64,000 nucleotides of DNA from Carposina sasakii (lineage: Eukaryota > Arthropoda > Insecta > Lepidoptera > Carposinidae). The position numbers and the translations under genes were made by a program. Positions 34,801 through 60,290 of the stretch are shown here, piece by piece. The notes below the pieces were generated by a model. The model saw only the letters and a program-made list of their open reading frames with translations, was not told the DNA's origin and ran no database searches. The DNA lies in assembly GCA_014607495.2 (NCBI GenBank), contig CP053153.1, forward strand, positions 62,001 to 126,000, read 5' to 3'. How positions within the stretch are numbered: position 1 is the first letter of the stretch; every line of letters begins with the position of its first letter.

Positions 34801-34802
34801 TA
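34798..34802 (-). promoter_or_regulatory. TAATG stop-start overlap, ORF1/ORF2 of element A
   Basis: The ORF1 stop TAA (34802-34800) and the ORF2 ATG (34800-34798) share one base. An overlapping UAAUG junction is the arrangement shown for SART1, where ORF2 is made by termination-reinitiation. The same junction is in element B. Confidence 0.8.
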
Positions 34803-37151
34803 ATCAACGGCCATTGGTGCAACCCCCTCGGCCCGTACCGCGGCGCTGGTGGCCGCGGCTGAGCGGATCGGCTGCTGCGAGGGGGCCCTGGGGCCTTCGG
34901 CAGCGATCCTCTTCTTGGTTGTTTTGCGGGCAGCGCAGAGCTTGCTGCCCGCGATATGGTCGGCCTTTTTGTTGGCGGCCGTGCACAGAGTGCAGTGCGG
35001 TGCCGCCTGACAAACGGCCGCCTTGTGGCCGGGCTCACCGCAGCGATAACACTCGTCGCTGCGGTCTACTGCCGACTTGCACGCCGCAACGACGTGCCCG
35101 ACCTCAAGACACCGGAAGCACCGCATGGGCCTCGGTTCTAAGAGGGTGATTTGGGCCGAGACCCAACCGACCAATACACGGCCGCCCTGCACCACCTTTT
35201 TTGCAGCTGCGATCGGGCATTTCAGCCATGCCGAGCGCAGGCCGGAGGGACCCTCGCGTATTTCTCCAACCTTTATTGCGTCAACGGCGCAACCTCCCAG
35301 CCGTGCGATCGCAGCTGCCACTTCTTCGCTGCGTACGGAGTCATCGAGGCCGGATATGCGCATATCGGTGCATTTCTCCGGCCTCGTAATCTTTACATTC
35401 TCGCTGTCGAGCTCCTCTCGAAGGCGAACGGCCAGGGCGTCCGCCAGAGTGCCACTGGTGGCGCCCGGGACTTCCAGTACCCGAGCACCAGTGGCCGACT
35501 TCCTAATACGGACGCCCTTTTCGAGTCCGAGGCCGGGCAGATCCACTTTAGTCCGGGCCTCGGACAACACCTTCTCGAAGGTAACACCCCTCTCCTCGGC
35601 GCCCGGCTGCAGTGAAATGACCACAGCCGCCGATCGAGGGGTGCGCAGTTTTTTCGCCTTGTCTGCCGCTTTCGGCGGCGGAGGAGCCCGACGCTGAGCA
35701 GACGGAGCCGCTGCCCCCTGTGGGACTCTGCCGCGCGAAGTCCTGCGTCTGCGCGATGCCACCACATTCCACGCCGCGTCCATCGACGCGGGCGCCGGCG
35801 GCAGCGGGCGAGGCTGGGGAGCGGCAGGAGTCCTACCTGACTCCCGCGCTGCCATGCTCTTTTTGCCGCGCTTCCGCTTCGGCTTGGAGGTGGCAAGGGC
35901 AGGGGCAGAGTTCGCCACTTGGGAAGTCGTTGCCTGCGGAGGGCGTGCATCCTGCGACTGGCTGGCCGCGACGGGCGGTGCTTTTCGCGCCCGTGTGGGC
36001 AGTGAGGGCACAGCCGGAGGTGGCTGTGTTGGACGCCTTGGGGAGGGGAGGGCGGGGTAAGCCTCTCTGGACAGCTCTGCCTGCCTCCACCTGTCGGAGG
36101 CCAGAGGAGGACGCAGATGGATTCGGTCCATCACCTCTAGCCGCCTGAGGAGAGAGGCATTCAACTCGTCCGCCGCCTTCTTTTCGGCCTCCTTCTCCTT
36201 CTGGAGTCGAGCCAGCTCCTGCTGCAGTCGACGAACGTCCTCCTGCAGCTTTACAGTCACGTCCGTGACTGTTCGCTGGCCCAACCCCGCGCAGGCCTTC
36301 TGCACCAGGGAGATCCCGTCCCTGAGGGCTTTTATAAAAGGCCCCTGGAGGTTCGTGGATCTTGATGCTACCTTCTCGATCAGGGCCACACCCTGATCCA
36401 GGTCCTCCAAGGGATCTGCGTTGCCCCCGGCCACCGACTCATCGGCCGAGGACGTCTCAGACAGCCGGGAACTGCGAGTCCGCCTCGCCTCTGTCAGTTC
36501 CTCCTGCATCTCTTTTTCAGCCCTCAGACGGAGCTCCTCCCTCTCTGCCCGTAACAGCCTCTCCTTTGCCTTTGCTAGGCCCACGTATTGTCCAGTCGAG
36601 GGCGGCCGACCTCGACCTTTACGCGACGGAGGCGAACGTTCCAGCTCATCCTCGCTGGAACTCAACCTCCGTCGCGTCAGCCTCCTTTTTCTAGGATTGG
36701 GTGTACCGGAGGGTGTCTCGGACCCAACCGACATTAGGTCAGCACCGTCCGACTCCTCCGAAGACAGATCCAGCCCTTTACTCTGCTCCACCTCGCTGGC
36801 AGTGTCGAAAACCGACGCCGCCCTACTACTTTTAGCAGAATCTAACCGCTGCAACCGCACTTCGGGCACACCTTGCCCGTGCGGTGCAGTGCTGATCTGC
36901 TTGGTACGGGTGTCCACGACATCCCTATCCTCCTCCGCGCCACGTCGGACTTCGGGCAAGCGCCCCTCCGACCCCGCGACGCTATGTCGCGCACTCCTCC
37001 GCAGTGACATGTTGCCGTATGTTCGGAGCGGTAACTCTCCGCTCATACGGCCCCACCCCCCTGCGGAAACCTCCTCTTCTGCGCCTTCTTTTGTGTTGAG
37101 CGACAAGTCAAAGGAGTGATCCCACTCCCCGGACCTCCCCCCGTCGCTCAT
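34800..37151 (-). CDS. SART-like LINE element A ORF1 (Gag-like), intact
   Basis: 783 codons from the first ATG at 37151; the open frame extends 7 codons further upstream without an ATG. This is a nucleic-acid binding Gag-like protein of an R1-clade telomeric LINE. The N-terminal half is Ser/Arg/Glu-rich and low complexity. A heptad-like stretch near residues 300-340 ('LQQELARLQKEKEAEKKA') suggests a coiled coil. A Pro/Ala-rich linker follows. The C-terminus (about 675-740) has three zinc knuckles: CFRCLEVGHVVAAC, CYRCGEPGHKAAVC and a longer CTLC...H...C. It ends 'APMAVD', and its TAA overlaps the ORF2 start. Codon use is very GC-rich, unlike the AT-rich left flank but like element B. It is longer than element B's ORF1 because B is 5' truncated. 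Confidence 0.9.
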   Translation of the reverse strand: MSDGGRSGEWDHSFDLSLNTKEGAEEEVSAGGWGRMSGELPLRTYGNMSLRRSARHSVAGSEGRLPEVRRGAEEDRDVVDTRTKQISTAPHGQGVPEVRLQRLDSAKSSRAASVFDTASEVEQSKGLDLSSEESDGADLMSVGSETPSGTPNPRKRRLTRRRLSSSEDELERSPPSRKGRGRPPSTGQYVGLAKAKERLLRAEREELRLRAEKEMQEELTEARRTRSSRLSETSSADESVAGGNADPLEDLDQGVALIEKVASRSTNLQGPFIKALRDGISLVQKACAGLGQRTVTDVTVKLQEDVRRLQQELARLQKEKEAEKKAADELNASLLRRLEVMDRIHLRPPLASDRWRQAELSREAYPALPSPRRPTQPPPAVPSLPTRARKAPPVAASQSQDARPPQATTSQVANSAPALATSKPKRKRGKKSMAARESGRTPAAPQPRPLPPAPASMDAAWNVVASRRRRTSRGRVPQGAAAPSAQRRAPPPPKAADKAKKLRTPRSAAVVISLQPGAEERGVTFEKVLSEARTKVDLPGLGLEKGVRIRKSATGARVLEVPGATSGTLADALAVRLREELDSENVKITRPEKCTDMRISGLDDSVRSEEVAAAIARLGGCAVDAIKVGEIREGPSGLRSAWLKCPIAAAKKVVQGGRVLVGWVSAQITLLEPRPMRCFRCLEVGHVVAACKSAVDRSDECYRCGEPGHKAAVCQAAPHCTLCTAANKKADHIAGSKLCAARKTTKKRIAAEGPRAPSQQPIRSAAATSAAVRAEGVAPMAVD

Positions 37152-37684
37152 GCGATCGGAATCGCAGCCCAAAAATAGGTTTTCGTTAGGGCGAAAAATC
37201 CCGAAAAATCCCCTCTTAAACCCCGATTATAAGGTGCAAGCGACCCTATATCCGGGGTTTAAGGATATGCGCGGATGCGCCGCACTCGCCTCGTCCTAAA
37301 AAGGACGGTTTCAAATCAGCACGTCGTGAATTCGATTTTTGCGCATGAAAAAACGAAAAAATCCTTAAATCCCGGATTAAAAACGGGATTTACGTCTAAT
37401 CCGGGATTTCGGTCTATCGAAAAATCCGGCGCAAAAAGACGAATCTAAGGACACCTCGATCGTATTTTTACGACGAACCTATGCGAAACTATAGGTTTTT
37501 TGCATCCTCAACTATAGGTTTTTTGCATCCTCAACTATAGGTTTTTTGCATCCTCAACTATAGGTTTTTTGCATCCTCAACTATAGGTTTTTTGCATCCT
37601 CAACTATAGGTTTTTTGCATCCTCCACTATAGGTTTTTTGCATCCTCCACTATAGGTTTTTTGCATCCTCCTTGCATCCTTCAA
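37152..37684 (-). repeat. Element A 5' UTR with eight 23 bp tandem repeats
   Basis: This is the leader of element A. Nearest ORF1 is 'cccgaaaaatcccc' repetitive sequence. Farther out, 37487-37670 holds eight copies of a 23 bp unit ('aactataggttttttgcatc' + 'ctc' on the plus strand). Two copies near 37625-37670 have the variant 'cactata'. It ends at the telomeric repeat at about 37685. The 5' end is presumably complete because it abuts telomeric repeats after a non-coding leader. Confidence 0.85.
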
Positions 37685-38231
<547 letters not shown>

Positions 38232-41200
38232 CTATGGGGGAAGGCGGTCGTATGCACGCCGCCTTCTGCGAGGCCTCTCGCGGCGGAGCGGGTCTGCTGC
38301 AGCATCTTGCTCTCGCGCGCGCTCCGCCGTCTCTTTGGCCATCATGACCTCTTCACAGAAGGCGACGGCCGCCCTCCAGGCCTCACTGCTGCCGATCATG
38401 GCGCTGACTAGCGCCGGCAGCGAGAGGTCCGCCCCCGCTACGGCCACCAGACGCGCTCGGGGCTCCGCCCACGCCGGGCACGCCGACAACGTGTGCTCGG
38501 CTGTATCGTCGACGGCGTCGCAGTGGTGACACGACGCTGTCGGCTCTCTTCTCACAACCCTGTGCAGGTAGTGCCCAAAACACCCATGGCCGGTGAGTAC
38601 CTGCACAAGGCGGTACGTGAGCGCACCCCGTCTGCGATCGACCCACTCTTTCAGAACGGGCCGGATCGCTCCGATCGTCCGGTGGCCGGCACTCGGCTCG
38701 TCGAGCCGTTCCGTCCATTTCCGGAGCAGAGCATCCCGCTGCGCGTTTCGGTAGCGTCGCGTCTCCTCCGGAAACGGAAGGTCTCCCCTCCGCCGCTGCT
38801 CTGCTACGCGCCGGTATATCGCCGCCGCGAGCTCTGCGTCTAGGTCCCAGGGAGGAGTTCCTGCGAGCACGCACGCCGCCTCGAAGGACACGGTGCGGTA
38901 CCCTCTCGCGATCCTGACCGCCGCAATCCGCTGCGCCTGGCGCAGCAGTTTCTTGCCGTTGGCAGTCAGGTTGTCGGTCCATACGGGTGCCCCGTATAGG
39001 GCCATGGACCGCACCACGCCCGCGTACAGACGGCGGCATCCTCCTCTGGGACTTCCCAAGTTCGGCAACAGTCCGCCGAGCGCACAAGCGACCCTTTTCA
39101 GCTTTGGGGCCAGCCCCTCGAAGTGGGCGTCGAACGTCCACCGAGCGTCGAGTACGAGGCCCAGATATTTCATGGTCCTCGCGACGCCGATGGAGACTCC
39201 ACCCACGACGATGCCGGCCCCCGCTGGGGGTCCCATCCGAGGCCCGTGAAAACAGATGGCCTCGGATTTATTTAAGGCGACCTCCAGCCCGAGACTTCTG
39301 ATCCGTCCGACGACGTGAGCCACACCTGCCGTGGCCAGTAGGGCAGCCTCTCGAAACGAGCTGCCGCGGGCGGTAACAAGGGTGTCGTCCGCATAGCAAG
39401 TGACATTGACACCCCGCAGGTTAGCGCCGCGCAGCACCCAGTCGTAGCCGATGTTCCACAGCAGGGGGCCTAAAACCGACCCCTGTGGAACACCGCACGA
39501 CATGGCCCTCTGGCCCCATCCTCCCTGCGCCGGATAGCGAATCGCGCGATCCGCGAGGTAATCCTCTACGATCCGGCGCAGGTACCGTGGCACGCCGTGG
39601 TGCCTGAGCGCATACCTGATGCAGCCCCACGGGAGCGAATTGAAGGCGTTTGCGATGTCGATCGACACCGCCAGCAACACCTCGCCCCGATGGACCGCAT
39701 CCTCCGCCAGGACCTTCACCCGCAGAAGGGCGTCAATGGTGGACCTACCCGTGCGAAAACCGTACTGGGTCTCGCTCAGGTTCGGTCCGACCGTCTCTAA
39801 GTGCTCGACGAGACGTCGAGCGATGATACGCTCGAAGATCTTACCCGCCTCGTCGAGCAATACGATCGGCCGATACGCCGAAGGCGCATCGGCCTGACGC
39901 CTCTCCTTGGCCAGCAAGACGAGTATTCCCGATTTCCAGATTTTCGGAAACCGGCCCCGCTCCAGGCAGTCGGTGAAGATCCTTCGCACTCTCGGCTCAA
40001 TGAGCACGGAGCTGAGGGCGTTAACCCAGGCCCGTCCGGGAGTTCCGTCCGGCCCGGGCGCGGTGTTCTTCTTCCTGATTCTCAGTACCGCCGCCCCAAG
40101 CTCCGCTCGCCTGACTTCAGGCACCACGGCATCCTCGTCGTCGGAGTCACCACCCGGCGGTGGGGGGAGACTGTGATCCCTCCCCTCCGGGAAGAGCGTT
40201 TCCACCACCCTTCCCAGGAGCTCCGGCTGGAGACTCTCCGTCAGCGGGGGCGCCCACGGGCGCAGTTTGCCCCTCACTGACTTGTAAGGGCGCCCCCACG
40301 GATCACGGTCCAACGTCTCCAGCATCTCCTTCACCGCCGCTTCCTTCGCCCTGGCGATCTCCACGCGCAGGGCTTTGGTGGCGACCCTGTACGCTTCGTA
40401 CAGGCGGTCCTCCTCATCGACGTTACGTCGTCGCCTCCTTCGGCTTCGGCAGTACTGGCGGCGCGCTGTCCCGCAGGCTCGACGGAGCCGCGACAGCTCC
40501 TCCGACCACCAGTACACCTGCCGCCTGGGGGAGTAGTTCCCTGAGAGGCGGGGCATGGCAGCGTCGCACATGTGCGTCATGGACAGCACCAACGACTCCG
40601 CCTCTCTCTCCACGTCCACCGGACTGTCGGGCGCCGAACGACTCCAGGCTTCGACCTGCAACGCCTCATAGAAGAGGTCCCGGTCGAAGCGCTTCAGCGC
40701 CCAGCGTGGATAATCCGAACGCAAGGAACGGCTCGGGCTGCTCGGGGCACCCGGGAGCGCGGAGACCTCGAATCGAATATATCGGTGATCCGACAGGGTC
40801 TCCACACTCGCCATCACTTCCCAGCCCCGGACACGGCGCGCCAGAGCGGCTGTGGCGAACGAAACGTCCACTATTGAACAGCCTCCCTGTCGCACGCACG
40901 TGTCGACCGTCCCTCGGTTCAGTAAACACAGCCCGGTGGAGATAGAAAACTCCTCCAGCAATCGGCCGCGCGCAGTTGTTCGCGAGGACCCCCAAGCGGT
41001 AGACCACGCATTGAGATCTCCGGCGAGCAGGACGTGGCCGGGGCTCAGCCACCCAACCACAGCCTCCAACTCGTCCAAAAACTCCTCGAACTCGTGCAGA
41101 CTGCGATTGGGGGAAAAATACACCCCAACCACCGCTATCCCGCGCGAGCAGGCGACGACGTAACCCGGTCCCATCTCAGTCCGATCGAAGGGTCGCGATC

Positions 41201-41387
41201 CGGCCCCTCGGACAATGGCCACGACGCCGTCACGGTCTCCGACCCAAGTATCGCGTCTGGGGACCGAGTACGGCTCGCAGACTACGGCTACGTCTATCGA
41301 CCACTCCGCCATACTCTGGACAAACAGGTCCTGAGCACGGGCGGCGTGGTTGACGTTCGCCTGTAGAATGCGTGTCGTCGTGGCCAT
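38232..41387 (-). CDS. SART-like LINE element B ORF2: endonuclease-reverse transcriptase, intact
   Basis: 1051 codons, from an ATG overlapping the ORF1 stop (TAATG). The order is an APE-type endonuclease at about residues 1-220 with 'ILQANVNH', catalytic-type Glu in 'CEPY' (38), 'GDLNAWSTAW' (about 120) and 'SDHRYIRF' (about 197); a linker; then reverse transcriptase with 'SAYRPIVLLDEAGKIFERII', 'SIDIANAFNSLPW', 'GVPQGSVLGPLLWN' and 'CYADDTLVTA' (about 662); and a C-terminal CHHC...H....C knuckle (about 950). It contains no stops. Known R1-clade enzymes with this architecture nick the target and prime cDNA synthesis from it; for SART/TRAS the target is the TTAGG repeat. Orientation and flanks here agree with a SART-type element. 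It could supply enzyme in trans to the plus-strand gag-only elements (inference). Confidence 0.92.
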   Translation of the reverse strand: MATTTRILQANVNHAARAQDLFVQSMAEWSIDVAVVCEPYSVPRRDTWVGDRDGVVAIVRGAGSRPFDRTEMGPGYVVACSRGIAVVGVYFSPNRSLHEFEEFLDELEAVVGWLSPGHVLLAGDLNAWSTAWGSSRTTARGRLLEEFSISTGLCLLNRGTVDTCVRQGGCSIVDVSFATAALARRVRGWEVMASVETLSDHRYIRFEVSALPGAPSSPSRSLRSDYPRWALKRFDRDLFYEALQVEAWSRSAPDSPVDVEREAESLVLSMTHMCDAAMPRLSGNYSPRRQVYWWSEELSRLRRACGTARRQYCRSRRRRRRNVDEEDRLYEAYRVATKALRVEIARAKEAAVKEMLETLDRDPWGRPYKSVRGKLRPWAPPLTESLQPELLGRVVETLFPEGRDHSLPPPPGGDSDDEDAVVPEVRRAELGAAVLRIRKKNTAPGPDGTPGRAWVNALSSVLIEPRVRRIFTDCLERGRFPKIWKSGILVLLAKERRQADAPSAYRPIVLLDEAGKIFERIIARRLVEHLETVGPNLSETQYGFRTGRSTIDALLRVKVLAEDAVHRGEVLLAVSIDIANAFNSLPWGCIRYALRHHGVPRYLRRIVEDYLADRAIRYPAQGGWGQRAMSCGVPQGSVLGPLLWNIGYDWVLRGANLRGVNVTCYADDTLVTARGSSFREAALLATAGVAHVVGRIRSLGLEVALNKSEAICFHGPRMGPPAGAGIVVGGVSIGVARTMKYLGLVLDARWTFDAHFEGLAPKLKRVACALGGLLPNLGSPRGGCRRLYAGVVRSMALYGAPVWTDNLTANGKKLLRQAQRIAAVRIARGYRTVSFEAACVLAGTPPWDLDAELAAAIYRRVAEQRRRGDLPFPEETRRYRNAQRDALLRKWTERLDEPSAGHRTIGAIRPVLKEWVDRRRGALTYRLVQVLTGHGCFGHYLHRVVRREPTASCHHCDAVDDTAEHTLSACPAWAEPRARLVAVAGADLSLPALVSAMIGSSEAWRAAVAFCEEVMMAKETAERAREQDAAADPLRRERPRRRRRAYDRLPP

Positions 41388-41389
41388 TA
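41385..41389 (-). promoter_or_regulatory. TAATG stop-start overlap, ORF1/ORF2 of element B
   Basis: ORF1 TAA at 41389-41387 and ORF2 ATG at 41387-41385 share a base, as in element A. Conservation of the junction in two diverged copies supports translational coupling. Confidence 0.8.
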
Positions 41390-42584
41390 ATTAACTGCCA
41401 TTGGAGCTTCCTCCGCAGGCTGTTCCGCAGCGCTGGCGGCCGCGGGTGAGCGAGTCGGCTGCTGCGAGGGGGCCCGGGGGCCTTCGGCAGCGACTCTTCT
41501 CCTCGGTGGTCTGCGGGCAGTGCAGGACTTGCCGCCCACAATGTGGTCGGCCTTCTTCTTGGCGGCCGTGCACAGGGAGCACTTTGGCGCCTCCCTGCAT
41601 GCCGCCGCCCTGTGGCCGGGCCGGCCGCAGCGATAACATTCATCGCTGCGATCCACCGCTGACTGGCACATCGCAGCGACGTGCCCGACTTCGAGGCAGC
41701 GGAAACACCGCATGGGTCTCGACTCTAGCAGTGATACTTGGGCCGAGACCCATCCGACCAACACTCGACCGCCCCCTACCACCTTCTTAGCAGCCGCGAT
41801 TGGGCACCGCAGCCACGCCGAACCTAGGCCGGAGGGTCCAACGCGGATCTCCCCGACCCTGATTGCGCTTGCGGCGCAGCTTCCAATTCGTGCCACAGCG
41901 GCTGCAATCTCCTCCTTCTTGACAGAATCGTCAAGGCCAGAGATGCGCAAATCTGCGCACCTCTCCGGCCTTGAGATCCTGACGTCCTCCACGGCAAGTT
42001 CCGCCTGGAGACGAGCGGCGAGGGCGTCCGCCAGCGGCCCGCTGGATGCTCCCGGCACCACCAGGACACGAGCACCAGTGACGGCTCTGCGAATGCGGAC
42101 ACCCTTCTCTAGGCCCAGGCCGGGCAGGTCCACCTTAGTCCGGGCCTCGGACAGCACCCTTTCGAAGGTGACGCCCCTCTCTTCCGCTCCCGGCTGTAGT
42201 GTTAAAACTACGGCCGCGGACCGAGGGGCGCGCATCTTTATCGCCTTCTTTTTAGGCGGAGCAGTCCGACGTTGCACCGGCGGCGCCACGACCTCCTCTT
42301 GGCCCCTACCATGCGCGTTCTTGCGCCTGCGTCCCGCCACCACATTCCACGCCGTATTTGTGTTCGCGGGTGCGGGTGGCAACGGGCGGGGACGGGGCTG
42401 CGGAGCGGCGGGAGCCGATCCCGACTCTCGCGCTGCCATGCTCTTACGGCCCCGTTTGCGCTTACGTTTCTTCGTGTTGGTAGCGGGGGCTGGGTTCGCC
42501 GATTTTGGTGGCGCTGCGGCAGGACGTCCAGCCTGCGCCTTCGGCCGCCCTGCCGCGGGCGTTCTCCTTTGTGCCCTTACGGGC
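41387..42584 (-). pseudogene. SART-like LINE element B ORF1, 5'-truncated
   Basis: About 399 codons remain. The 5' end is cut directly at the telomeric array, and no ATG or leader precedes it. TTAGG repeats upstream contain in-frame TAG. The preserved part aligns with the C-terminal half of element A ORF1: the Pro/Ala-rich linker, 'RSAAVVLTLQPGAEERGVTF', and three zinc knuckles (CFRCLEVGHVAAMC, CYRCGRPGHRAAAC, CSLC...H...C), ending 'APMAVN'. Truncation at the 5' end is the usual result of incomplete LINE reverse transcription. Without a leader, element B probably lacks its own promoter, so its intact ORF2 may be silent. Confidence 0.85.
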
Positions 42585-42864
42585 AACCTAACCTAACCTA
42601 ACCTAACCTAACCTAACCTAACCTAACCTAACCTAACCTAACCTAACCTAACCTAACCTAACCTAACCTAACCTAACCTAACCTAACCTAACCTAACCTA
42701 ACCTAACCTAACCTAACCTAACCTAACCTAACCTAACCTAACCTAACCTAACCTAACCTAACCTAACCTAACCTAACCTAACCTAACCTAACCTAACCTA
42801 ACCTAACCTAACCTAACCTAACCTAACCTAACCTAACCTAACCTAACCTAACCTAACCTAACCC
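42585..42864. repeat. Telomeric (CCTAA)n array, about 56 units
   Basis: Uninterrupted perfect CCTAA units separating the truncated 5' end of minus-strand element B from the 5' end of plus-strand gag-only element 1. The two elements diverge from this array. Confidence 0.98.
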
Positions 42865-44949
42865 AGTGGCGCTCGATCCGAGGTCGCGGTCGTACCTGGT
42901 TGAGAGCACGTGCGCACGAAATTAACCTAAAACTGCGTTTAAAATTACAAAAAATTGGGTTTTTTGCAAGCTACGAGGTCGCGAGTGGTATCAAAAGTTG
43001 CGTCTCGTTGAGGCGCACCTGCCTGCGAAAAAATTTTGAAGATCCGTTGAAGACTTCAGGATCTACAGTGAATTAAGTGACTTTGGTGAAAAACACAAAA
43101 CTTCAAGTGAGTGCGCTGCGTGATTAAGATCGATGACCCATTGTTTTTCTTTTGAAAAACGGTGCCCCCCGTGGATCCCCATCGATTTGCAGCATCAGAA
43201 GATTTTTTCAGTCAGGACCTGAAAAGCTATTAAGGTTTTAGTGAAAACCACGTGGCACGTGGTACCTGTTCCTGAAGGAATTTTGAAAAACTAAAAACGC
43301 CATTTTGACCGGGACAGCGAGACGAAGAAAACGACGTATTGCAAGTTATAATCGGCTGAAAATTGGATTTTTTACAGACTTTACAGTGTCAAAACTTTAC
43401 AGTGTAATAACTCTGAAACAAGATCTGTGAGGTATACTTTTTATTATATATTCTGATGCGCGCTGAGCGGCCGAGTAAAACGACACCAAATTTAGATTTT
43501 TAAATTTATGTTTTGACATTTTTCAGTCAAAATTACTGAAATTTCAGTTTTTATTGTTTTCATCGGCCGTTTCAGGAGATTGTCGCTACTTTAGTATATA
43601 AGATTATAGAGCTAGTTAATACGCGTCTTTTGACACCTTGTTTGGATTTTTCGGGCGAGTGGTTCTCCTGAAATTTAAATTTTACTGTTTTTGGCAATAT
43701 TCCTGGAAATTACTGAAAATTCAAAATTTTTGACACTTGGACCACTTTATAGTGACCCATTGGGACCCTCTTACCCCAAACCCCAAGTCCCTAGGCCGCC
43801 CGGGGGCGATTTCTCGCGAAACTCCGGGTCCGCCGCCATTTTGTGGTACTTGGGGAAAAACTTCGAGTGGGTATAATTCCGGAACCACTTGTCTGATCCA
43901 AACGGGGTTTTCTTTATTAGCATAGGGAAAGCTGTGGGAATCGATTCCCATAGCTTTCAGTCAATTTCAGCGCCTGAAAAATTTTCAGCCTGAAACCGTT
44001 TTCAGGTAATACTTTAGGTGGAGCCCACCACAGGATCCAAAACCCCGTGGCTCTACGAGCTCTGGGAGCGGAGCTGTAAGCGTCCGAATATCGAGTTTGA
44101 CAGCTCGGCGGCCATCTTGGAAAAATTCGGACGCTTATTGCTCAGGAACCAAGGGGCGTAGGAGACTGAGGTTTTTTCGGCTGAGTAGAGGAGCTTAACT
44201 CCTACCCCTTGCGCCACTTTTCAGGCGATTAGGCCTGAAAAAATTTTCAGGTTCAGGAAACGGTTTCACCTGAAAGAGTAGGTCGAGCTGAGCCGGGGGA
44301 GTCCAAACGCCGTTTTCCTGGGACGCCCGGTGCCTGAGTTAGCTTGACTTAAAGTTTGACTTTGACAGCTGGGCGGCCATCTTGGAAAAGTTTGGGCTCG
44401 TCTAGCTCCTCACCCAGTGGGCCGATTTCAACGGGGTTTTCTCTGACAGAGGTGCCGGCACCTCATCTATAGACCCAGGGCCCTTCCGGCCGTTTTCGGA
44501 CACTCCGAGTTTCCTGAAAAAATTTTTCAGGAAACCGGTAGACCTCGTTGAGATCGCCACGAGGGTAAAAACCGCGTCCCTCTGCGACTAAAACTCGCAG
44601 AGCTATCGCCACTCGGAGTTACGGAGGCTGCTGCTACGAGTTTTCTGCGAAAACTACGTGCCCCGTGGCTCCGGAACGGAGCGTCCGTTCGCAACGCGGT
44701 TTTTTCGACTGTGCCGGGCGCTGAAAGGGCTATCCAGCCCACCAGTTTAGGAGACTCTACAATAGAGTTTAGGTAGAGCCGAAAAAATTTATTTTGATTT
44801 TAAATATATCTATTTTTGTATATTGACTTGTGCCTATTGGCCACTAGGTTAGGCTCAAGACTACCACGGACAGTATTCTGACGTGGTAATTAGGCTAATT
44901 AGTATATAAGACTTTGCTGCTGAAACAAGTTGAAACTCCTGCGATCAAG
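42865..44949 (+). promoter_or_regulatory. Structured 2.1 kb leader of gag-only copy 1
   Basis: The leader is full of short inverted repeats made of CTGAAA/TTTCAG: 'cctgaaaaattttcag' near 43974, 'cctgaaaccgttttcagg' near 43991, 'cctgaaaaaattttcagg' near 44235, 'tcctgaaaaaatttttcagga' near 44513. Others are a 30 bp palindrome with one mismatch at 43928-43957 ('gggaatcgattccc' core) and the pair 'taagcgtccgaat' (44077) / 'attcggacgctta' (44125). 'gacagct(c/g)ggcggccatcttgg' is repeated at about 44098 and 44366. TATATAAG occurs at 43595 and again at 44903, 47 nt before the ATG. Short open frames are present, but none is protein-like. A role in transcription, translation or packaging is inference. 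Confidence 0.6.
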
Positions 44950-46416
44950 ATGATGCCAGGAGCAAGGACCCCGGTAAACAGGGCAATCCCCCCTAGAGCT
45001 CGTCAGCTCACCCGAACAATGGAGCGAGCAAAGAGCACTCCGCCATCACCAAAAATGGCTCATACTTCAGAAAAACAGGTACCACAGCCGGAGATGCTTT
45101 TCTTTTCTCCCGGACCGTCTGGGACGGCGGACAAGGCTCCGCAATGGTATGAGAAAGGGAAACCAGTTTACAAAGGCTTTCCCGATTTCGACTGGCACGA
45201 GGGGAAGGTCGACCCGGGTGAGTATTTCCCGGCCGATATAGTCCCTGTAGAGCGCGCACCGACAAGGTCGCGAATCCTGGAGGCTAAGAAACTAGCCACA
45301 AATGCAAACACTAAATTAGATACAGCCAGGAACCTTCGCACGGACATAAAAATAGCTGTGAAAAGTGCACTGGACGGACTTCTCAAATTAATCAAGGAGG
45401 CTGAAGAGGAACGCCGCTCGGAGGTGAGAAGACTATCAAAGACCTTTCCGAAACCCGTAGAGCCGGAACAAATCATCGACCCAATAAAAGAAACGCTAGA
45501 GGCCCACGGGAAAATGCTGCACGAAACGGCCCAGCAACTAAAAGACCTCAAGCTGGCAATTGTGGAGCAACAAAAAGGGTCAGAGGAGCGAACACACACA
45601 TATGCGAGCGTGACAGCCGGTAGTATACGGCGTCAGTCACCGCGAAAACTGGACCATAAATCGCTCCACTCCATAGTCGTCAGCTCGAGGGATGAAAGCG
45701 AGACAGCAGAAGAGGTTTTGAGCAAAATCAGGACCACAGTGGACGCGAAGAAGGGAGGGGTGAGAATTGATAGGGTCAGGAAGGCTAAAGGAAGGAAGGT
45801 GATAATGAGCTGTGAAACAAAAGAAGATAGAGATAGACTTAAGGATAGGTTAAGGAAAGATGTAAATCACCTCATCGTCGAGGAAATCAAAAACAAAGAT
45901 CCGCTGGTGGTTCTTAAGGGCGTGTTGCAGGGTAACAGCGATGATGACATCGCGAGCGCCCTTAGGAACCAAAACGGAGCTGTCTTTGAGGACCTCGAGG
46001 ATGGGGAGGACGAGATAGAGATAAGATATAGAAAGAAGACCAGGAATCCGCACATGGTGCATGTAGTGGCTCGCGTCTCTACCAAGGTCTGGCAGAGGAT
46101 GACGGCGGCGGGGTCCGTTTTCGTAGACATGCAGAGGGTCAGGGTGGAGGACCAGTCCCCCCTGGTCCAATGCTCAAAGTGTCTCGGATATGGGCACGGC
46201 CGCCGTTTCTGTAGCGAGACTGCGGAGAGATGTAGCCACTGCGGTGGTCCGCATATGCGTGCAAAATGTGCGGATTTCCTGGCGGGTGAGCCTCCCTCAT
46301 GTAGTAATTGTGTGCAGTCGGGGTTGACCGGTGTGGACCATAATGCCTTCAGCGGGTGTTGTCCGGTGAGGCAGAAGTGGGACGCACTGGCCAGATCCTC
46401 GATTGCATATAGTTGA
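44950..46416 (+). CDS. Gag-like ORF of gag-only telomeric LINE, copy 1
   Basis: 488 codons from the first ATG (44950; the second codon is also ATG). 12 upstream in-frame codons lack an ATG. Likely role: binds the element RNA and carries it to telomeres. The N-terminus is Pro/Arg/Ser-rich. Charged heptad-like segments at about 135-165 and 175-215 ('ETLEAHGKMLHETAQQLKDL') suggest coiled coils. A central LINE-Gag-type region (about 237-300) has 'VRIDRVRKAKGRKV'. Three C-terminal knuckles (about 408-475) are CSKCLGYGHGRRFC, CSHCGGPHMRAKC and CSNC with a distant 'HNAFSGCC'. The order and the third knuckle are those of R1/Jockey-type ORF1 proteins. No frameshift or stop. No overlapping ORF2 start follows the stop. 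Confidence 0.88.
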   Translation: MMPGARTPVNRAIPPRARQLTRTMERAKSTPPSPKMAHTSEKQVPQPEMLFFSPGPSGTADKAPQWYEKGKPVYKGFPDFDWHEGKVDPGEYFPADIVPVERAPTRSRILEAKKLATNANTKLDTARNLRTDIKIAVKSALDGLLKLIKEAEEERRSEVRRLSKTFPKPVEPEQIIDPIKETLEAHGKMLHETAQQLKDLKLAIVEQQKGSEERTHTYASVTAGSIRRQSPRKLDHKSLHSIVVSSRDESETAEEVLSKIRTTVDAKKGGVRIDRVRKAKGRKVIMSCETKEDRDRLKDRLRKDVNHLIVEEIKNKDPLVVLKGVLQGNSDDDIASALRNQNGAVFEDLEDGEDEIEIRYRKKTRNPHMVHVVARVSTKVWQRMTAAGSVFVDMQRVRVEDQSPLVQCSKCLGYGHGRRFCSETAERCSHCGGPHMRAKCADFLAGEPPSCSNCVQSGLTGVDHNAFSGCCPVRQKWDALARSSIAYS

Positions 46417-47673
46417 GGCCAGCCAAACGACAGCTGCGGAGGGAACCATTATCCTAGTAAGTGCGTAAGCTAATGGCCATGGTGGATTGTATGTTTAAGA
46501 ATGACAGTAAACAACTCAACTTGATAACAAGTAAGAGTAACATCCGCCTAGGTCAATAAGTAGCAAATAACGCGGTAATAAACAAAACGGGTAACTCCTT
46601 CCGCATCTGTCGGTAAAATAGTACTTATGAAATTCTAGATGTAAAATTACAGAAGCATATAATTAAAACTCGCATATATAGTGACTATATATAACGCAGT
46701 TTAGCTTATAATTATAAGGATATAAAAAGGTGGATATAAATAGTGCTAAAATAAGGCTGGAACGGCAAATAAGAATGTAAATAAAATGTTAAGTACGTCA
46801 ATAAATATGTATGGAGCACACGTATAACAGAGATACTGTATTGTCTGTCACACAATAGATATAAGATAAAACATAAAAAATAAATATAGATAAAGCTAAT
46901 AGATTAAGAGTAATAATGTAGAATAGGATTAAATAAAGCGTAAAATAAAGTAAATAGCCTGCATAAGATCAGCAGAAATATGAGGAAATCCCTCCACTGA
47001 AGAATAAAATGTAAACATGAGATGAGTAAAAATGTAAATTATGTATCAGACAATCAGTATCATCAGCTATAATAAATATAATGTATAGGTAGAAAATAAA
47101 GTAAATAGCCTGCATAAGAACAACAAAAATAAGAGAATATTCCTCCACTGGAAAAATAATGTAAAAGTTAGATGTAAAAATATGTAACTCATGTTAAATA
47201 GATACTTGTATCGTCTACAATAGATAAATGTATAGGTAGAATACGGATATGTAATAGAGTAAGATTAAATAAATTAAAGAAAAGAGCTGCAAAAAAAAAA
47301 AAAAAAAAAAGTAAAACAAGAGTAGGAAATAAGATAGTCAGTCTCAGACCCTCCCAATAAATCCCTTGATCCCAATTAACCTCAGATAGATAGTCAGAAC
47401 ACACGCTGGTAAAGAGAAGAGAAACACCGACTAAAGAATGCAGTTCAGTGCACTCACTCTAAGCCGCAATACACACACACGGTTAGATAAAAGAACAAGC
47501 TAGTACTAGAACATAATAGAATTGGCATTAAAAATTTTGCATTGGATCCATCAGATCCTGCCTGAAAGGCTAAAGCCTGTAACTAAAGATAAAATAGCAA
47601 ATAAGGACCCTGAACAAACATGTGAATCAGGGGAAGCAGCAATAAATAAAAAAAAAAAAAAAAAAAAAAAAAA
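46417..47673 (+). repeat. 3' UTR with degenerate ~150 bp repeats and poly(A), copy 1
   Basis: AT-rich, no long ORF. 'aaaataaagtaaatagcctg' + 'cataaga' occurs at about 46942 and 47093, each followed by 'tcctccactg(a/g)a' and 'taatgtaaa' or 'aaatgtaaac'. A looser third relative ('gatactgta...caatagata') precedes them. The end is 'gaagcagcaataaata' then A(26). HeT-A also has a long repetitive 3' UTR; the resemblance is in organisation only. Confidence 0.75.
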
Positions 47674-47860
47674 CCTAACCTAACCTAACCTAACCTAACC
47701 TAACCTAACCTAACCTAACCTAACCTAACCTAACCTAACCTAACCTAACCTAACCTAACCTAACCTAACCTAACCTAACCTAACCTAACCTAACCTAACC
47801 TAACCTAACCTAACCTAACCTAACCTAACCTAACCTAACCTAACCTAACCTAACCTAACC
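47674..47860. repeat. Telomeric (CCTAA)n array, about 37 units
   Basis: Perfect units between the poly(A) of gag-only copy 1 and the 5' end of copy 2. Confidence 0.98.
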
Positions 47861-49943
47861 AGTAGCGCTCGATCCGAGGTCGCGGTCGTACCTGGTTGAG
47901 AGCACGTGCGCACGAAATTAACCTAAAACTGCGTTTAAAATTACAAAAAATTGGGTTTTTTGCAAGCTACGAGGTCGCGAGTGGTATCAAAAGTTGCGTC
48001 TCGTTGAGGCGCACCTGCCTGCGAAAAAATCTTGAAGATCCGTTGAAGACTTCAGGATCTACAGTGAATTAAGTGACTTTGGTGAAAAACACAAAACTTC
48101 AAGTGAGTGCGCTGCGAGATTAAGATCGATGACCCATTGTTTTTCTTTTGAAAAACGGTGCCCCCCGTGGATCCCCATCGATTTGCAGCATCAGAAGATT
48201 TTTTCAGTCAGGGCCTGAAAAGCTATTAAGGTTTTAGTGAAAACCACGTGGCACGTGGTACCTGTTCCTGAAGGAATTTTGAAAAACTAAAACGCCATTT
48301 TGACCGGGACAGCGAGACGAAGAAAACGACGTATTGCAAGCTAATATCGGCTGAAAATTGGATTTTTTACAGACTTTACAGTGTCAAAACTTTACAGTGT
48401 AATAACTCTGAAACAAGATCTGTAAGGTATATTTTTTTATTATATATTCTGATGCGCGCTGAGCGGCCGAGTAAAACGACACCAAATTTAGATTTTTAAA
48501 TTTATGTTTTGACATTTTTCAGTCAAAATTACTGAAATTTCGGTTTTTATTGTTTTCATCGGCCGTTTCAGGAGATTGTCGCTACTTTAGTATATAAGAT
48601 TATAGAGCTAGTTAATACGCGTCTTTTGACACCTTGTTTGGATTTTTCGGGCGAGTGGTTCTCCTGAAATTTAAATTTTACTGTTTTCGGCAATATTCCT
48701 GGAAATTACTGAAAATTCAAAATTTTTGACACTTGGACCACCTTATAGTGACCCATTGGGACCCTCTTACCCCAAACCCCAAGTCCCTAGGCCGCCCGGG
48801 GGCGATTTCTCGCGAAACTCCGGGTCCGCCGCCATTTTGTGGTACTTGGGGAAAAACTTCGAGTGGGTATAATTCCGGAACCACTTGTCTGATCCAAACG
48901 GGGTTTTCTTTATTAGCATAGGGAAAGCTGTGGGAATCGATTCCCATAGCTTTCAGTCAATTTCAGCGCCTGAAAAATTTTCAGCCTGAAACCGTTTTCA
49001 GGTAATACTTTAGGTGGAGCCCACCACAGGATCCAAAACCCCGTGGCTCTACGAGCTCTGGGAGCGGAGCTGTAAGCGTCCGAATATCGAGTTTGACAGC
49101 TCGGCGGCCATCTTGGAAAAATTCGGACGCTTATTGCTCAGGAGCCAAGGGGCGTAGGAGACTGCGGTTTTTTCGGCTGAGTAGAGGAGCTTAACTCCTA
49201 CCCCTTGCGCCACTTTTCAGGCGATTAGGACTGAAAAAATTTTCAGGTTCAGGAAACGGTTTCACCTGAAAGAGTAGGTCGAGCTGAGCCGGGGGAGTCC
49301 AAACGCCGTTTTCCTGGGACGCCCGGTGCCTGAGTTAGCTTGACTTAAAGTTTGACTTTGACAGCTGGGCGGCCATCTTGGAAAAGTTTGGGCTCGTCTA
49401 GCTCCTCACCCAGTGGGCCGATTTAAACGGGGTTTTCTCTGACAGAGGTGCCGGCACCTCATCTATAGACCCAGGGCCCTTCCGGCCGTTTTCGGACACT
49501 CCGAGTTTCCTGAAAAAATTTTTCAGGAAACCGGTAGACCTCGTTGAGATCGCCACGAGGGTAAAAACCGCGTTCCTCTGCGACTAAAACTCGCAGAGCT
49601 ATCGCCACTCGGAGTTACGGAGGCTGCTGCTACGAGTTTTCTGCGAAAACTACGTGCCCCGTGGCTCCGGAACGGAGCGTCCGTTCGCAACGCGGTTTTT
49701 TCGACTGTGCCGGGCGCTGAAAGGGCTATCCAGCCCACTAGTTTAGGAGACTCTACAATAGAGTTTAGGTAGAGCGGAAAAATTTATTTTGATTTTAAAT
49801 ATATCTATTTTTGTATATTGACTTGTGCCTATTGGCCACTAGGTTAGGCTCAAGACTACCACGGACAGTATTCTGACGTGGTAATTAGGCTAATTAGTAT
49901 ATAAGACTTGCTGCTGAATCAAATTGAAACTCCTGCGATCAAG
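47861..49943 (+). promoter_or_regulatory. Structured leader of gag-only copy 2
   Basis: It has the same hairpin-forming CTGAAA/TTTCAG sites and the palindrome (48924-48953) as copy 1, and TATATAAG at 48591 and 49898. The substitutions relative to copy 1 that I could see lie mostly outside the palindromes, but I did not count them. Confidence 0.55.
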
Positions 49944-51410
49944 ATGATGCCAGGAGCAAGGACCCCGGTAAACAGGGCAATCCCCCCTAGAGCTCGTCAG
50001 CTCACCCGAACTATGGAGCGAGCAAAGAGCACTCCGCCATCACCAAAAATGGCTCATACTTCAGAAAAACAGGTACCACAGCCGGAGATGCTTTTCTTTT
50101 CTCCCGGACCGTCTGGGACGGCGGACAAGGCTCCGCAATGGTATGAGAAAGGGAAACCAGTTTACAAAGGCTTTCCCGATTTCGACTGGCACGAGGGGAA
50201 GGTCGACCCGGGTGAGTATTTCCCGGCCGATATAGTCCCTGTAGAGCGCGCACCGACAAGGTCGCGAATCCTGGAGGCTAAGAAACTAGCCACAAATGCA
50301 AACACTAAATTAGATACAGCCAGGAACCTTCGCACGGACATAAAAATAGCTGTGAAAAGTGCACTTGACGGACTTCTCAAATTAATCAAGGAGGCTGAAG
50401 AGGAACGCCGCTCGGAGGTGAGAAGACTATCAAAGACCTTTCCGAAACCCGTAGAGCCGGAACAAATCATCGACCCAATAAAAGAAACGCTAGAGGCCCA
50501 CGGGAAAATGCTGCACGAAACGGCCCAGCAACTAAAAGACCTCAAGCTGGCAATTGTGGAGCAACAAAAAGGGTCAGAGGAGCGAACACACACATATGCG
50601 AGCGTGACAGCCGGTAGTATACGGCGTCAGTCACCGCGAAAACTGGACCATAAATCGCTCCACTCCATAGTCGTCAGCTCGAGGGATGAAAGCGAGACAG
50701 CAGAAGAGGTTTTGAGCAAAATCAGGACCACAGTGGACGCGAAGAAGGGAGGGGTGAGAATTGATAGGGTCAGGAAGGCTAAAGGAAGGAAGGTGATAAT
50801 GAGCTGTGAAACAAAAGAAGATAGAGATAGACTTAAGGATAGGTTAAGGAAAGATGTAAATCACCTCATCGTCGAGGAAATCAAAAACAAAGATCCGCTG
50901 GTGGTTCTTAAGGGCGTGTTGCAGGGTAACAGCGATGATGACATCGCGAGCGCCCTTAGGAACCAAAACGGAGCTGTCTTTGAGGACCTCGAGGATGGGG
51001 AGGACGAGATAGAGATAAGATATAGAAAGAAGACCAGGAATCCGCACATGGTGCATGTAGTGGCTCGCGTCTCTACCAAGGTCTGGCAGAGGATGACGGC
51101 GGCGGGGTCCGTTTTCGTAGACATGCAGAGGGTCAGGGTGGAGGACCAGTCCCCCCTGGTCCAATGCTCAAAGTGTCTCGGATATGGGCACGGCCGCCGT
51201 TTCTGTAGCGAGACTGCGGAGAGATGTAGCCACTGCGGTGGTCCGCATATGCGTGCAAAATGTGCGGATTTCCTGGCGGGTGAGCCTCCCTCATGTAGTA
51301 ATTGTGTGCAGTCGGGGTTGACCGGTGTGGACCATAATGCCTTCAGCGGGTGTTGTCCGGTGAGGCAGAAGTGGGACGCACTGGCCAGATCCTCGATTGC
51401 ATATAGTTGA
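49944..51410 (+). CDS. Gag-like ORF of gag-only telomeric LINE, copy 2
   Basis: 488 codons from the ATG at 49944. The predicted protein appears identical to that of copy 1 over its full length. The few base changes I noticed within it (e.g. near 50010 and 50366) are silent. The codons just upstream of the ATG differ between copies (AAA CAA GTT vs AAT CAA ATT), which supports the ATG rather than an upstream start. Same coiled-coil and three-knuckle layout as copy 1. Confidence 0.88.
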   Translation: MMPGARTPVNRAIPPRARQLTRTMERAKSTPPSPKMAHTSEKQVPQPEMLFFSPGPSGTADKAPQWYEKGKPVYKGFPDFDWHEGKVDPGEYFPADIVPVERAPTRSRILEAKKLATNANTKLDTARNLRTDIKIAVKSALDGLLKLIKEAEEERRSEVRRLSKTFPKPVEPEQIIDPIKETLEAHGKMLHETAQQLKDLKLAIVEQQKGSEERTHTYASVTAGSIRRQSPRKLDHKSLHSIVVSSRDESETAEEVLSKIRTTVDAKKGGVRIDRVRKAKGRKVIMSCETKEDRDRLKDRLRKDVNHLIVEEIKNKDPLVVLKGVLQGNSDDDIASALRNQNGAVFEDLEDGEDEIEIRYRKKTRNPHMVHVVARVSTKVWQRMTAAGSVFVDMQRVRVEDQSPLVQCSKCLGYGHGRRFCSETAERCSHCGGPHMRAKCADFLAGEPPSCSNCVQSGLTGVDHNAFSGCCPVRQKWDALARSSIAYS

Positions 51411-52637
51411 GGCCAGCCAAACGACAGCTGTGGAGGGAACCATTATCCTAGTAAGTGCGTAAGCTAATGGCCATGGTGGATTGTATGTTTAAGAATGACA
51501 GTAAACAACTCAACTTGATAACAAGTAAGAGTAACATCCGCCTAGGTCAATAAGTAGCAAATAACGCGGTAATAAACAAAACGGGTAACTCCTTCCGCAT
51601 CTGTCGGTAAAATAGTACTTATGAAATTCTAGATGTAAAATTACAGAAGCATATAATTAAAACTCGCATATATAGTGACTATATATAACGCAGTTTAGCT
51701 TATAATTATAAGGATATAAAAAGGTGGATATAAATAGTGCTAAAATAAGGCTGGAACGGCAAATAAGAATGTAAATAAAATGTTAAGTACGTCAATAAAT
51801 ATGTATGGAGCACACGTATAACAGAGATACTGTATTGTCTGTCACACAATAGATATAAGATAAAACATAAAAAATAAATATAGATAAAGCTAATAGATTA
51901 AGAGTAATAATGTAGAATAGGATTAAATAAAGCGTAAAATAAAGTAAATAGCCTGCATAAGATCAGCAGAAATATGAGGAAATCCCTCCACTGAAGAATA
52001 AAATGTAAACATGAGATGAGTAAAAATGTAAATTATGTATCAGACAATCAGTATCATCAGCTATAATAAATATAATGTATAGGTAGAAAATAAAGTAAAT
52101 AGCCTGCATAAGAACAACAAAAATAAGAGGATATTCCTCCACTGGAAAAATAATGTAAAAATTAGATGTAAAAATATGTAACTCATGTTAAATAGATACT
52201 TGTATCGTCTACAATAGATAAATGTATAGGTAGAATACGGATATGTAATAGAGTAAGATTAAATAAATTAAAAAAAAGAGCTGCAAAAAAAAATAATAAT
52301 AATAATAGTAAAACAAGAGTAGGAAATAAGATAGTCAGTCTCAGACCCTCCCAATAAATCCCTTGATCCCAATTAACCTCAGATAGATAGTCAGAACACA
52401 CGCTGGTAAAGAGAAGAGAAACACCGACTAAAGAATGCAGTTCAGTGCACTCACTCTAAGCCGCAATACACACACACGGTTAGATAAAAGAACAAGCTAG
52501 TACTAGAACATAATAGAATTGGCATTAAAAATTTTGCATTGGATCCATCAGATCCTGCCTGAAAGGCTAAAGCCTGTAACTAAAGATAAAATAGCAAATA
52601 AGGACCCTGAACAAACATGTGAATCAGGGGAAGCAGC

Positions 52638-52701
<64 letters not shown>
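51411..52701 (+). repeat. 3' UTR and 61 nt poly(A), copy 2
   Basis: As in copy 1, with the ~150 bp degenerate repeats near 51936 and 52087. An A-rich run near 52285 has become (aat)n. No ORF. Confidence 0.75.
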
Positions 52702-52704
<3 letters not shown>

Positions 52705-52789
52705 AACCTAACCTAACCTAACCTAACCTAACCTAACCTAACCTAACCTAACCTAACCTAACCTAACCTAACCTAACCTAACCTAACCT
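52702..52789. repeat. Telomeric (CCTAA)n, about 17 units; inner edge of the island
   Basis: Perfect units end at 'cctaacctcagatcgggaaa'. To the right is ordinary AT-rich DNA, so this is the junction between telomeric and subtelomeric sequence if the array is terminal. Confidence 0.95.
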
Positions 52790-53109: not shown

Positions 53110-53175
<66 letters not shown>

Positions 53176-53325: not shown

Positions 53326-53400
<75 letters not shown>

Positions 53401-59576: not shown

Positions 59577-60290
59577 TTATGCAGAATCAGTACAGCTCTC
59601 GAAGCAGGTGTTACATGTTGGACGAGTTACTGCATGTTCATCACAAACTGGTTTTCTACAGTTAGTGCAAGCTTTTCGGGTTTTTCTTTGCTTGCATTTA
59701 AGTTCTCTGCATATGTAGCAACTTCCGACGACTGCAACACGCCCTGTAGAATCTCGTCTAGTCTGACTTATAGAAGTTGTAGATCTAGAAGGAATCGAAA
59801 GCCTTAGTTTTTGGCCAAGCACGTCCTGCATTGTAGATCTAACATGTAATTTTGATGTCACAATGGAATTTTTTGATCTTTCTTCTATATTTTTACCACA
59901 CAGTTGTAGACTCAATGATTTCAAAAACTTTCGACGTCTGTCACTCGAGACAATTTGTGGGTTATGTTCCATGTAAATGATATATGCTGCCAAAGCTGCA
60001 ATGTCAATTATATTGTAAAAAAGTGCTAAAGGCCACCGATTCGTTCTGCGTTTTATGGTGTATTCTGCTAACAGCTTATCCATATTGTCCACTCCACTTT
60101 TGGTTTTATTATAATATAAAATTATTTCTGGCTTGGCAGTTTCCTTATTACTTTCAATAACTGGTGACATGTGCATTGATGACAACATCATTACTGCTTT
60201 ATTCTTTTTGGGTACATAGGAGCACAAAGTTGCTTCTTTGCTAAAGGCGAAGTTAGAAGAATAAATCACCCTCTCCTTGTATGCTTGCAT
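59577..60290 (-). pseudogene. piggyBac transposase, C-terminal part
   Basis: 237 codons. It contains 'YNKTKSGVDNMDKLLAEYTI', the piggyBac block that includes the last catalytic Asp region, then 'RRTNRWPLALFYNIIDIAAL'. The C-terminus is a cysteine-rich domain (CYIC, CKQ, CTNC, CDEH, CNTC) that in piggyBac proteins binds the element ends. It ends close to the left terminus of the element. It lacks the N-terminal and first catalytic parts, and is separated from 60358-60807 by a deletion and frame change, so no working transposase is made from this copy. Confidence 0.88.

Follow-up and report, generated by a model that had tools for sequence, protein, structure and literature searches.

HeT-A of Drosophila is the textbook oddity among telomeric long interspersed elements (LINEs), as it has no enzyme. 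It attaches to the chromosome ends of these telomerase-less flies, a sense promoter in its 3' untranslated region (3'UTR) serves the downstream copy, and TAHRE and TART are possible enzyme sources. The source of its reverse transcriptase (RT) has been described as still open (PMC5537684). The LINEs TRAS (TRAS1 of Bombyx, R1 clade) and SART are found in telomeric repeats. TRAS cuts between C and T of the CCTAA strand and between T and A of the TTAGG strand, while SART inserts the opposite way (PMC7265360; PMC2868851).

The stretch analysed here, referred to as the window, comprises 64,000 nucleotides (nt) of the lepidopteran Carposina sasakii (contig CP053153.1; C6:62001-126000 of a 399-Mb, 31-contig assembly). 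It contains two LINE units, a and b, each with a single long open reading frame (ORF) encoding a Gag protein. An initial annotation of the window had proposed a gag-only, non-autonomous family resembling HeT-A. This proposal is supported, and the family is found genome-wide and forms one Gag clade. What goes beyond the proposal is that the family is of TRAS type, that a likely helper with the same 3' hairpin is present in the same genome, and that the neighbours of the units are of SART type. No gag-only telomeric LINE of Lepidoptera was found in the literature covered by our limited searches, and an older description may exist.

Anatomy and insertion site of the two units

Both units consist of a leader of ~2.08 kb, a Gag of 488 amino acids (aa), a 3'UTR of ~1.23 kb and poly(A) (Table 1), and they are placed head-to-tail on the + strand within one (CCTAA)n array. 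Their 5' junctions lie directly after CCTAACC, with one additional C in unit a, and at the 3' junctions poly(A) runs straight into CCTAACC. Apart from the additional C, this is the pair of collinear 4.8-kb units that had been annotated. The annotated lack of endonuclease (EN) and RT was also borne out: ten ORF2 queries (nine TRAS-like, one SART-like) used in tblastn up to E=10 detected no endonuclease/RT relic in the unit, all matches being at chance level (E at least 0.5).

The unit junctions, ...CCTAACC at the 5' end and A(n)-CCTAACC at the 3' end, correspond to the TRAS site, with CCTAA on the sense strand. The two minus-strand neighbours have ...TTAGGTT at the 5' end and A(n)-AGGTTAGG at the 3' end, which is the SART site; the combination of sense TTAGG and poly(A)-AGGTTAGG is seen in these neighbours and in neither unit. 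Since the junctions match the published cut sites, the units are assigned to the TRAS type and the neighbours to the SART type. The proteins agree with this. Among the ORF1s compared, the window Gag is homologous to those linked to TRAS1-like ENs and to the ORF1 of a two-ORF TRAS in the same genome (L029), while the SART Gag is only distantly similar (26%). Among 23 longer predicted proteins with such a Gag, 18 contain endonuclease, RT and RNase H domains, and 19 match TRAS1 EN with 48-67% identity, the other four giving no match; the EN of a minus-strand neighbour is 34% identical to TRAS1 EN. Judged by site and orientation, and probably by Gag too, the gag-only family is thus of TRAS type. 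As the units have no TRAS-type ORF2 (EN, RT), they should be called TRAS-derived and not autonomous TRAS.

The single long ORF has 500 aa if it is taken to start at a TTG and 488 aa if it starts at the ATG typical of the family, and the latter start fits the family motif MMPG/MFG.RTP. The 488-aa proteins of the two units are identical. Three zinc knuckles had been annotated, which is a fair description: by eye the motifs are CX2CX4HX4C, CX2CX3HX4C and an atypical CX2CX9HX5C, but Pfam gave no match in the window Gag, the zinc knuckle included. Rfam gave no match either. An AlphaFold model (mean predicted local distance difference test, pLDDT, 74.6) has long helices at 105-213 and two folds like RNA-recognition motifs (RRMs) at ~240-401, and Foldseek places it closest to proteins with two RRMs, UP1 among them (E 2.9e-5, low template-modelling score). 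Such an architecture agrees with the kind of LINE ORF1 that combines RRMs with zinc knuckles (PMC4120745). There are 423 Gag homologues, of which the best 120 reach 54% identity; the named ones among these 120 are lepidopteran, if our genus-to-order assignments are right. No relatives were found in viral or bacterial/archaeal contig collections.

Units a and b are 99.3% identical, with 33 aligned substitutions, and their tail lengths and 5' junctions are not alike. When the six substitutions in microsatellite or tail are left out, the remaining 27 are distributed as 21/2086 in the leader, 2/1464 in Gag and 4/1227 in the 3'UTR. The Gag rate differs from that of the leader (p=0.001) and not from that of the 3'UTR (p=0.42), and because of the latter the two window copies alone are not decisive as to constraint. 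In the same comparison (42864-47640 vs 47861-52637) a stretch of 1065 nt is free of differences (p 0.03), and this uneven distribution hints at a mosaic or at gene conversion. Both 3'UTRs also contain an internal A-tract with AATAAA before it (47268-47310, the tract being 47290-47310, and 52266-52306), ~330 nt short of the real 3' end, as if left over from an earlier poly(A) site or from a 3' transduction.

Table 1. Features of the gag-only units and of the telomeric array around them (window coordinates)
Feature	Position	Strand	Remarks
Gag-only unit a	42864..47673	+	5' end through poly(A)
Gag-only unit b	47861..52701	+	5' end through poly(A)
Unit a 5' leader	42864..44949	+	type 1; homologous leaders on gag-only and ORF2-bearing copies
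Unit b 5' leader	47861..49943	+	
Unit a Gag ORF	44950..46416	+	488 aa, ends AYS, stop included
Unit b Gag ORF	49944..51410	+	protein identical to that of unit a; 2 synonymous differences
Unit a 3'UTR	46417..47647	+	A-rich, imperfect ~151-bp internal repeats
Unit b 3'UTR	51411..52639	+	
Unit a 3'-terminal hairpin	47608..47640	+	CCCTGA...TCAGGG + GAAGCAGC tail; also in two-ORF TRAS
Unit b 3'-terminal hairpin	52605..52637	+	with GAAGCAGC tail
SGCCATYTTG x4, unit a leader	43298..44384	+	at 43298, 43834, 44110, 44375; putative YY1/Pho-like
SGCCATYTTG x4, unit b leader	48293, 48830, 49106, 49371	+	putative YY1/Pho-like
(CCTAA)n array, 5' of unit a	42587..42861	+	
(CCTAA)n array, between units a and b	47674..47858	+	
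(CCTAA)n array, unit b to subtelomeric sequence	52702..52786	+	
SART-type two-ORF LINE	37727-42586	-	5'-truncated, ORF1 399 aa
SART-type two-ORF LINE	32479-37682	-	8x 23-bp leader repeat; frame-broken ORF2 entering assembly gap

Gag-only copies across the genome

The lists of Gag and ORF2 matches in the assembly both hold the best-scored places only, and the counts given below are therefore not full censuses. Twenty stretches of ~10 kb and eight shorter ones were read; since they were selected among the top Gag matches, they are biased towards the gag-only clade. ORFs for Gag with 323 aa or more were counted in the window and in L009-L030, leaving out L001-L008, which are short copies of listed places. 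As L014 and L015 contain the same unit, the 31 rows represent 30 distinct ORFs. Downstream of 27 of these ORF2 is missing, and in three it is present; L031 and L032 are two further ORF2-linked copies. By coordinates, the best-scored places include 91 Gag matches, of which 74 reach the Gag C-terminus (linkage to ORF2 was judged from these, leaving aside the 17 others). An ORF2 match is found within 1.5 kb of 12 of the 74, and in one of these, on C15, a poly(A)-telomere junction lies between Gag and ORF2, which leaves 11 linked and 63 unlinked. Nine of the linked Gags are below 53% identity and two are of a type named TRAS-B. Most copies in both counts thus lack ORF2; the opposite would, according to the initial annotation, have refuted its proposal.

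The other finding that it named as a refutation, units placed elsewhere than at telomeres, was not made either. Sixteen complete units run from telomeric repeat to telomeric repeat (TTAGG/CCTAA), with leaders of 2083-2263 nt and 3'UTRs of 775-1235 nt, although several of the arrays are assembled megabases from contig ends. Where same-strand Gag ends are less than 12 kb apart, 22 of 31 neighbour pairs are spaced by 3.7-5.5 kb. Among 22 printed 5' junctions (one unit appears twice), 21 lie within ~3 nt of an AGTRRCGCT-like end after CCTAACC, and the remaining one is truncated. A third near-identical copy (L009, Gag 98.6%) is found on C23, and many diverged gag-only units are present on other contigs.

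The gag-only Gags form a single clade, with ultrafast bootstrap (UFBoot) support of 94 in a tree of 23 tips (one unit twice) and 83 in one of 26 tips. Gag ORFs shorter than 420 aa were excluded from the former; three of them were added in the latter, the second unit of L021 not being among them. Outside the clade are the Gags of the two-ORF TRAS copies (L010 second unit, L029, L031) and the sampled Gags of other Lepidoptera. The taxa from other species were part of the best 120 of the 423 homologues plus ORF2-linked ones, and none of those put in the trees falls inside the clade. The window Gag accordingly belongs to a separate clade among TRAS-linked Gags. An early tree, made without other copies from the same genome, nested it among ORF2-linked Gags (support 0.84), and was replaced by the fuller trees.

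Within the clade, Gags diverge up to ~46% from that of the window, and the subfamilies read, at 25-46%, are all without ORF2. Among 14 gag-only Gags the median dN/dS is 0.15 (84 pairs) and the maximum 0.27; many dS values are saturated, and three pairs with dS 0.27-0.38 give 0.14-0.16. With a dN/dS of ~0.15, Gag is under purifying selection and has been kept despite the loss of ORF2. The C-terminus does differ. AYC is the end of 116 of the 120 homologues. An overlap of 16-19 nt between Gag match and open ORF2 frame is seen in seven of the 11 linked pairs, while the remaining four have partial matches. When the two prematurely ended proteins among the 27 ORF2-less Gags are excluded, 24 of the remaining 25 end in AYS, AYG or AYE and one in AYC. 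The loss of the terminal cysteine may reflect release from the overlap with ORF2. Exceptions to the pattern are the second Gag in Ostrinia protein P0121, which ends in AYS, and the ORF2-linked second unit of L027, which ends in IDYG. The latter unit, at the right end of C9, is a distant TRAS-like element with ORF2, a short leader and a Gag of 24.5% identity.

Leaders, 3' ends and the likely source of the enzyme

L029 (C30:4181500-4189000) is a two-ORF TRAS in which both frames are open, ORF1 being 489 aa and ORF2 1244 aa. ORF2 carries EN, RT and RNase H, and the EN matches TRAS1 EN with E 2.1e-75. The element ends in a 565-nt 3'UTR, poly(A) and CCTAA, while its 5' end is beyond the stretch read. 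RNase H is present in the two-ORF relatives found here, while for Bombyx TRAS3 a figure legend gives EN, RT and zinc finger only (PMC4686597). A second two-ORF type, TRAS-B, is represented by L031 (C12:8300-15300) and L032 (C5:15925300-15932300), each with one broken ORF, and its Gag groups with Gags of other Lepidoptera.

Gag-only units and two-ORF TRAS have a common 5' start, leader types and 3' hairpin. By eye the hairpin, usually with GCAGC, precedes 27 of 28 distinct poly(A)-CCTAA ends from the loci and the window, TRAS included, the lone end without it being in L012 at 589. For 17 representative ends, 91.6% of the cells of the seven-pair stem are paired vs 79.8% after shuffling, and there are 9 double-change cells vs 2.7; none of 500 shuffles reaches either value. 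Both the stem support and the measures without signal (see below) come out alike in a model-based set of 28 distinct rows, which leans to structure. Single-sequence folding is better than shuffles in three of five ends, the window's included (z -2.4 to -3.0). The shared hairpin is a likely handle for the LINE RT.

The leaders do not follow Gag. The Gags of unit a and L010 agree to 92% and their leaders are unalignable, and two TRAS copies whose Gags are 72% identical have unalignable leaders as well. Conversely, the leaders of the gag-only L023 and the two-ORF L029 (its last 1430 nt before Gag) are 85% identical over 1.03 kb, while the Gags are only 39% identical. The window leader type is also found beside an ORF2-bearing copy on C20 (1942 of 2086 nt aligned, 70%) and near ORF2 on C3 (73% over most of the length), and part of the L029 3'UTR aligns with several gag-only 3'UTRs (67-76% over ~270-340 nt). 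Because non-coding leaders are here better conserved than coding Gag, which is hard to obtain by simple descent, leaders and 3' ends seem to be exchanged as modules, probably between gag-only and two-ORF elements. The initial annotation had asked whether a longer, ORF2-bearing relative with the same UTRs exists; two-ORF TRAS shares the leader types and the 3' hairpin, but its Gag is different.

All eight SGCCATYTTG matches in the window lie in the two leaders, in sense orientation (mean in shuffles 0.56). The motif is present in sense orientation, once or more, in all 19 gag-only leaders (one unit twice) and absent from their antisense strand, and the TRAS leader of L010 has five copies. Both the core GCCAT and GTCGCCATCTTG of mouse L1 are sites for YY1 (PMC11602158), and the motif is a lead towards a possible promoter element.

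It appears very probable that the gag-only units are a long-lived, HeT-A-like branch of TRAS, mobilised in trans by the ORF2 protein (ORF2p) of TRAS and kept compatible with it by UTR swapping. Anatomy, site, hairpin, Gag clade, purifying selection, module shuffling and a coexisting two-ORF TRAS with open frames can be read directly from the assembly. The gag-only RNA would be packaged by its own Gag and have the same terminal hairpin as TRAS RNAs. ORF2p of a two-ORF TRAS, with its endonuclease and RT, would bind this RNA in trans, nick the TTAGG strand and, starting at the poly(A) tail, copy the RNA into the telomeric repeat. Exchange of leaders and 3' ends, by template switching or by recombination in arrays, would keep the branch compatible with its helper while the Gag lineage persists. 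In trans, SART1 proteins move a reporter RNA to which the SART1 3'UTR is attached, and since this baculovirus assay exists, enzyme-sharing is directly testable (PMC7265360).

Two-ORF TRAS is the most likely enzyme source. That SART supplies the enzyme is very improbable: SART-type elements do adjoin the units, but their orientation and cut site are opposite, the Gag is a TRAS-linked one and the 3' hairpin is that of TRAS. The orientation, the cut site and the identity of its Gag led us to reject SART both as parent and as helper. Even harder to maintain is that the units are two copies of one internally deleted TRAS, produced by a local duplication accident. They are adjacent and nearly identical, as such an accident would leave them, but the copy on C23, the many diverged gag-only units elsewhere and the unlike tails and 5' junctions speak against it, and simple local deletion was ruled out by the genome survey.

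The gag-only copies could also be dead-end offshoots from which ORF2 was repeatedly deleted, selection acting on the Gag of a two-ORF master. Among the ORF2-linked Gags read, the nearest is that of TRAS-B (L031 on C12; frame-broken L032 on C5), 49.5% identical over 406 aa, and it is placed outside the gag-only clade, with other lepidopteran Gags, some of them ORF2-linked (UFBoot 97). None of the 26 gag-only-clade tips has ORF2 in the at least 0.4 kb read downstream, and the diverged subfamilies all lack it. We regard repeated deletion as unlikely, even if one ORF2-less copy with a TRAS-A-like Gag and the restriction to top-scored places are in its favour. About equally unlikely is that Gag is selected for a role in telomere targeting or capping for the host or the element community, and not for the mobility of its own RNA. 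The dN/dS of 0.15 without ORF2 would suit such a role, and Drosophila HeT-A Gag targets TART and TAHRE ribonucleoproteins to telomeres (PMC5537684). The units nevertheless look like mobile elements, with discrete 5' ends, poly(A), target-site junctions and many loci, and none of the tests made here shows a host role. A two-component system, in which TRAS gives endonuclease/RT and the ancient gag-only clade a dedicated Gag that perhaps also brings both to telomeres, the two drawing on a common pool of leaders and hairpins, is a tentative extension that we hold to be possible but rather doubtful.

Several observations weigh against mobilisation of a long-lived branch by TRAS. The second unit of L021 (C26:9347211) is ORF2-less with a TRAS-A-like Gag, which means that ORF2 was lost more than once and that its loss can be sporadic too; the ORF2 search covers best-scored places. 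One member of the gag-only clade (L023 second unit) retains AYC. The window Gag departs from 3 of 52 near-invariant columns, the highest number among 121 sequences (itself and 120 relatives), which may reflect relaxed constraint, but the other 120 have nearer kin in the set than it has. For the hairpin, two of five covariation measures (pairs with double changes, extra pair types) are not above shuffles (156/500), and in two of five ends folding is no better than in shuffles. The window 3'UTR has only 3 matches and gives no blastn match to that of L029 at E 1e-5, and the hairpin is therefore its sole link to L029. Transcription, packaging, trans-mobilisation and the swap route are all inferred.

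Like TRAS, the units have CCTAA on the sense strand, a 5' flank in ...CC, poly(A)-AACC, a Gag related to ORF1s with TRAS1-like EN, and leaders and a 3' hairpin common to two-ORF TRAS of the same genome. Unlike TRAS, they have no ORF2, a separate Gag clade and a mostly lost terminal cysteine, and cannot be autonomous. With HeT-A they have in common the gag-only telomeric organisation, head-to-tail order, long UTRs, a 3' end that, to judge by repeat polarity, faces the chromosome body, and life beside a two-ORF relative that shares UTR sequence. They differ from it in their insertion, which is at an endonuclease site within telomeric repeats, in the TRAS-type Gag and in the 3' hairpin. Gag without Pol is found as in HeT-A, attachment to a bare chromosome end is not; since the units have fixed junctions and telomeric repeats on either side, they would work like HeT-A without being HeT-A. 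SART is likewise telomere-repeat specific and adjoins the units twice, but has the opposite orientation and cut (A(n)-AGGTTAGG) and a Gag of 26% identity. A common 3' stem-loop as likely RT handle recalls the pairs of short interspersed elements (SINEs) and LINEs (PMC5135761); unlike a SINE, the units are protein-coding, 4.6-5 kb long and polyadenylated, with a conserved Gag.

The family would thus be an apparently independent enzyme-less telomeric LINE in a genome that retains its telomeric repeats, with a likely helper in the same assembly, and it offers a concrete RNA handle, the 3' hairpin, together with purifying selection on Gag. The two-component system, if true, would be convergent with HeT-A/TART of flies, yet in a TTAGG-keeping genome. 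The family would also imply that a transposable-element lineage can persist without its own enzyme by exchanging UTR modules with a helper.

Surroundings of the units in the assembly

From the polarity of the repeats, we infer that the window array is a left chromosome end in which each unit has its 5' end on the distal side. Other arrays are placed no more than kilobases from a contig end on C1, C3, C4, C12, C28 and at the right end of C9, and are assembled inside contigs on C23 (2.25 Mb), C21 (2.13), C30 (4.18), C13 (7.65), C9 (7.5) and C8 (12.66). The interior ones are either scaffolding errors or true interstitial arrays. A 500-N gap beside the telomeric array of the window (31979-32478) suggests a scaffold join at a chromosome end. 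The C8 array likewise abuts a 500-N gap (L035 4492-4991), and no gap was present within 4-5 kb of three other contig-interior arrays checked.

In the remainder of the window, an A57 tract (53116-53172) and a T70 tract (53328-53397) form an inverted pair around a subtelomeric stretch of ~155 bp. Weak RT relics of other LINEs are found on the - strand at 28983-31324, and a partial piggyBac-like transposase (DDE_Tnp_1_7), also on the - strand, at 59577-60290. At 63001-64000 the GC content rises abruptly to 74% within an AT-rich region, and this stretch has long ORFs that overlap as well as short tandem repeats.

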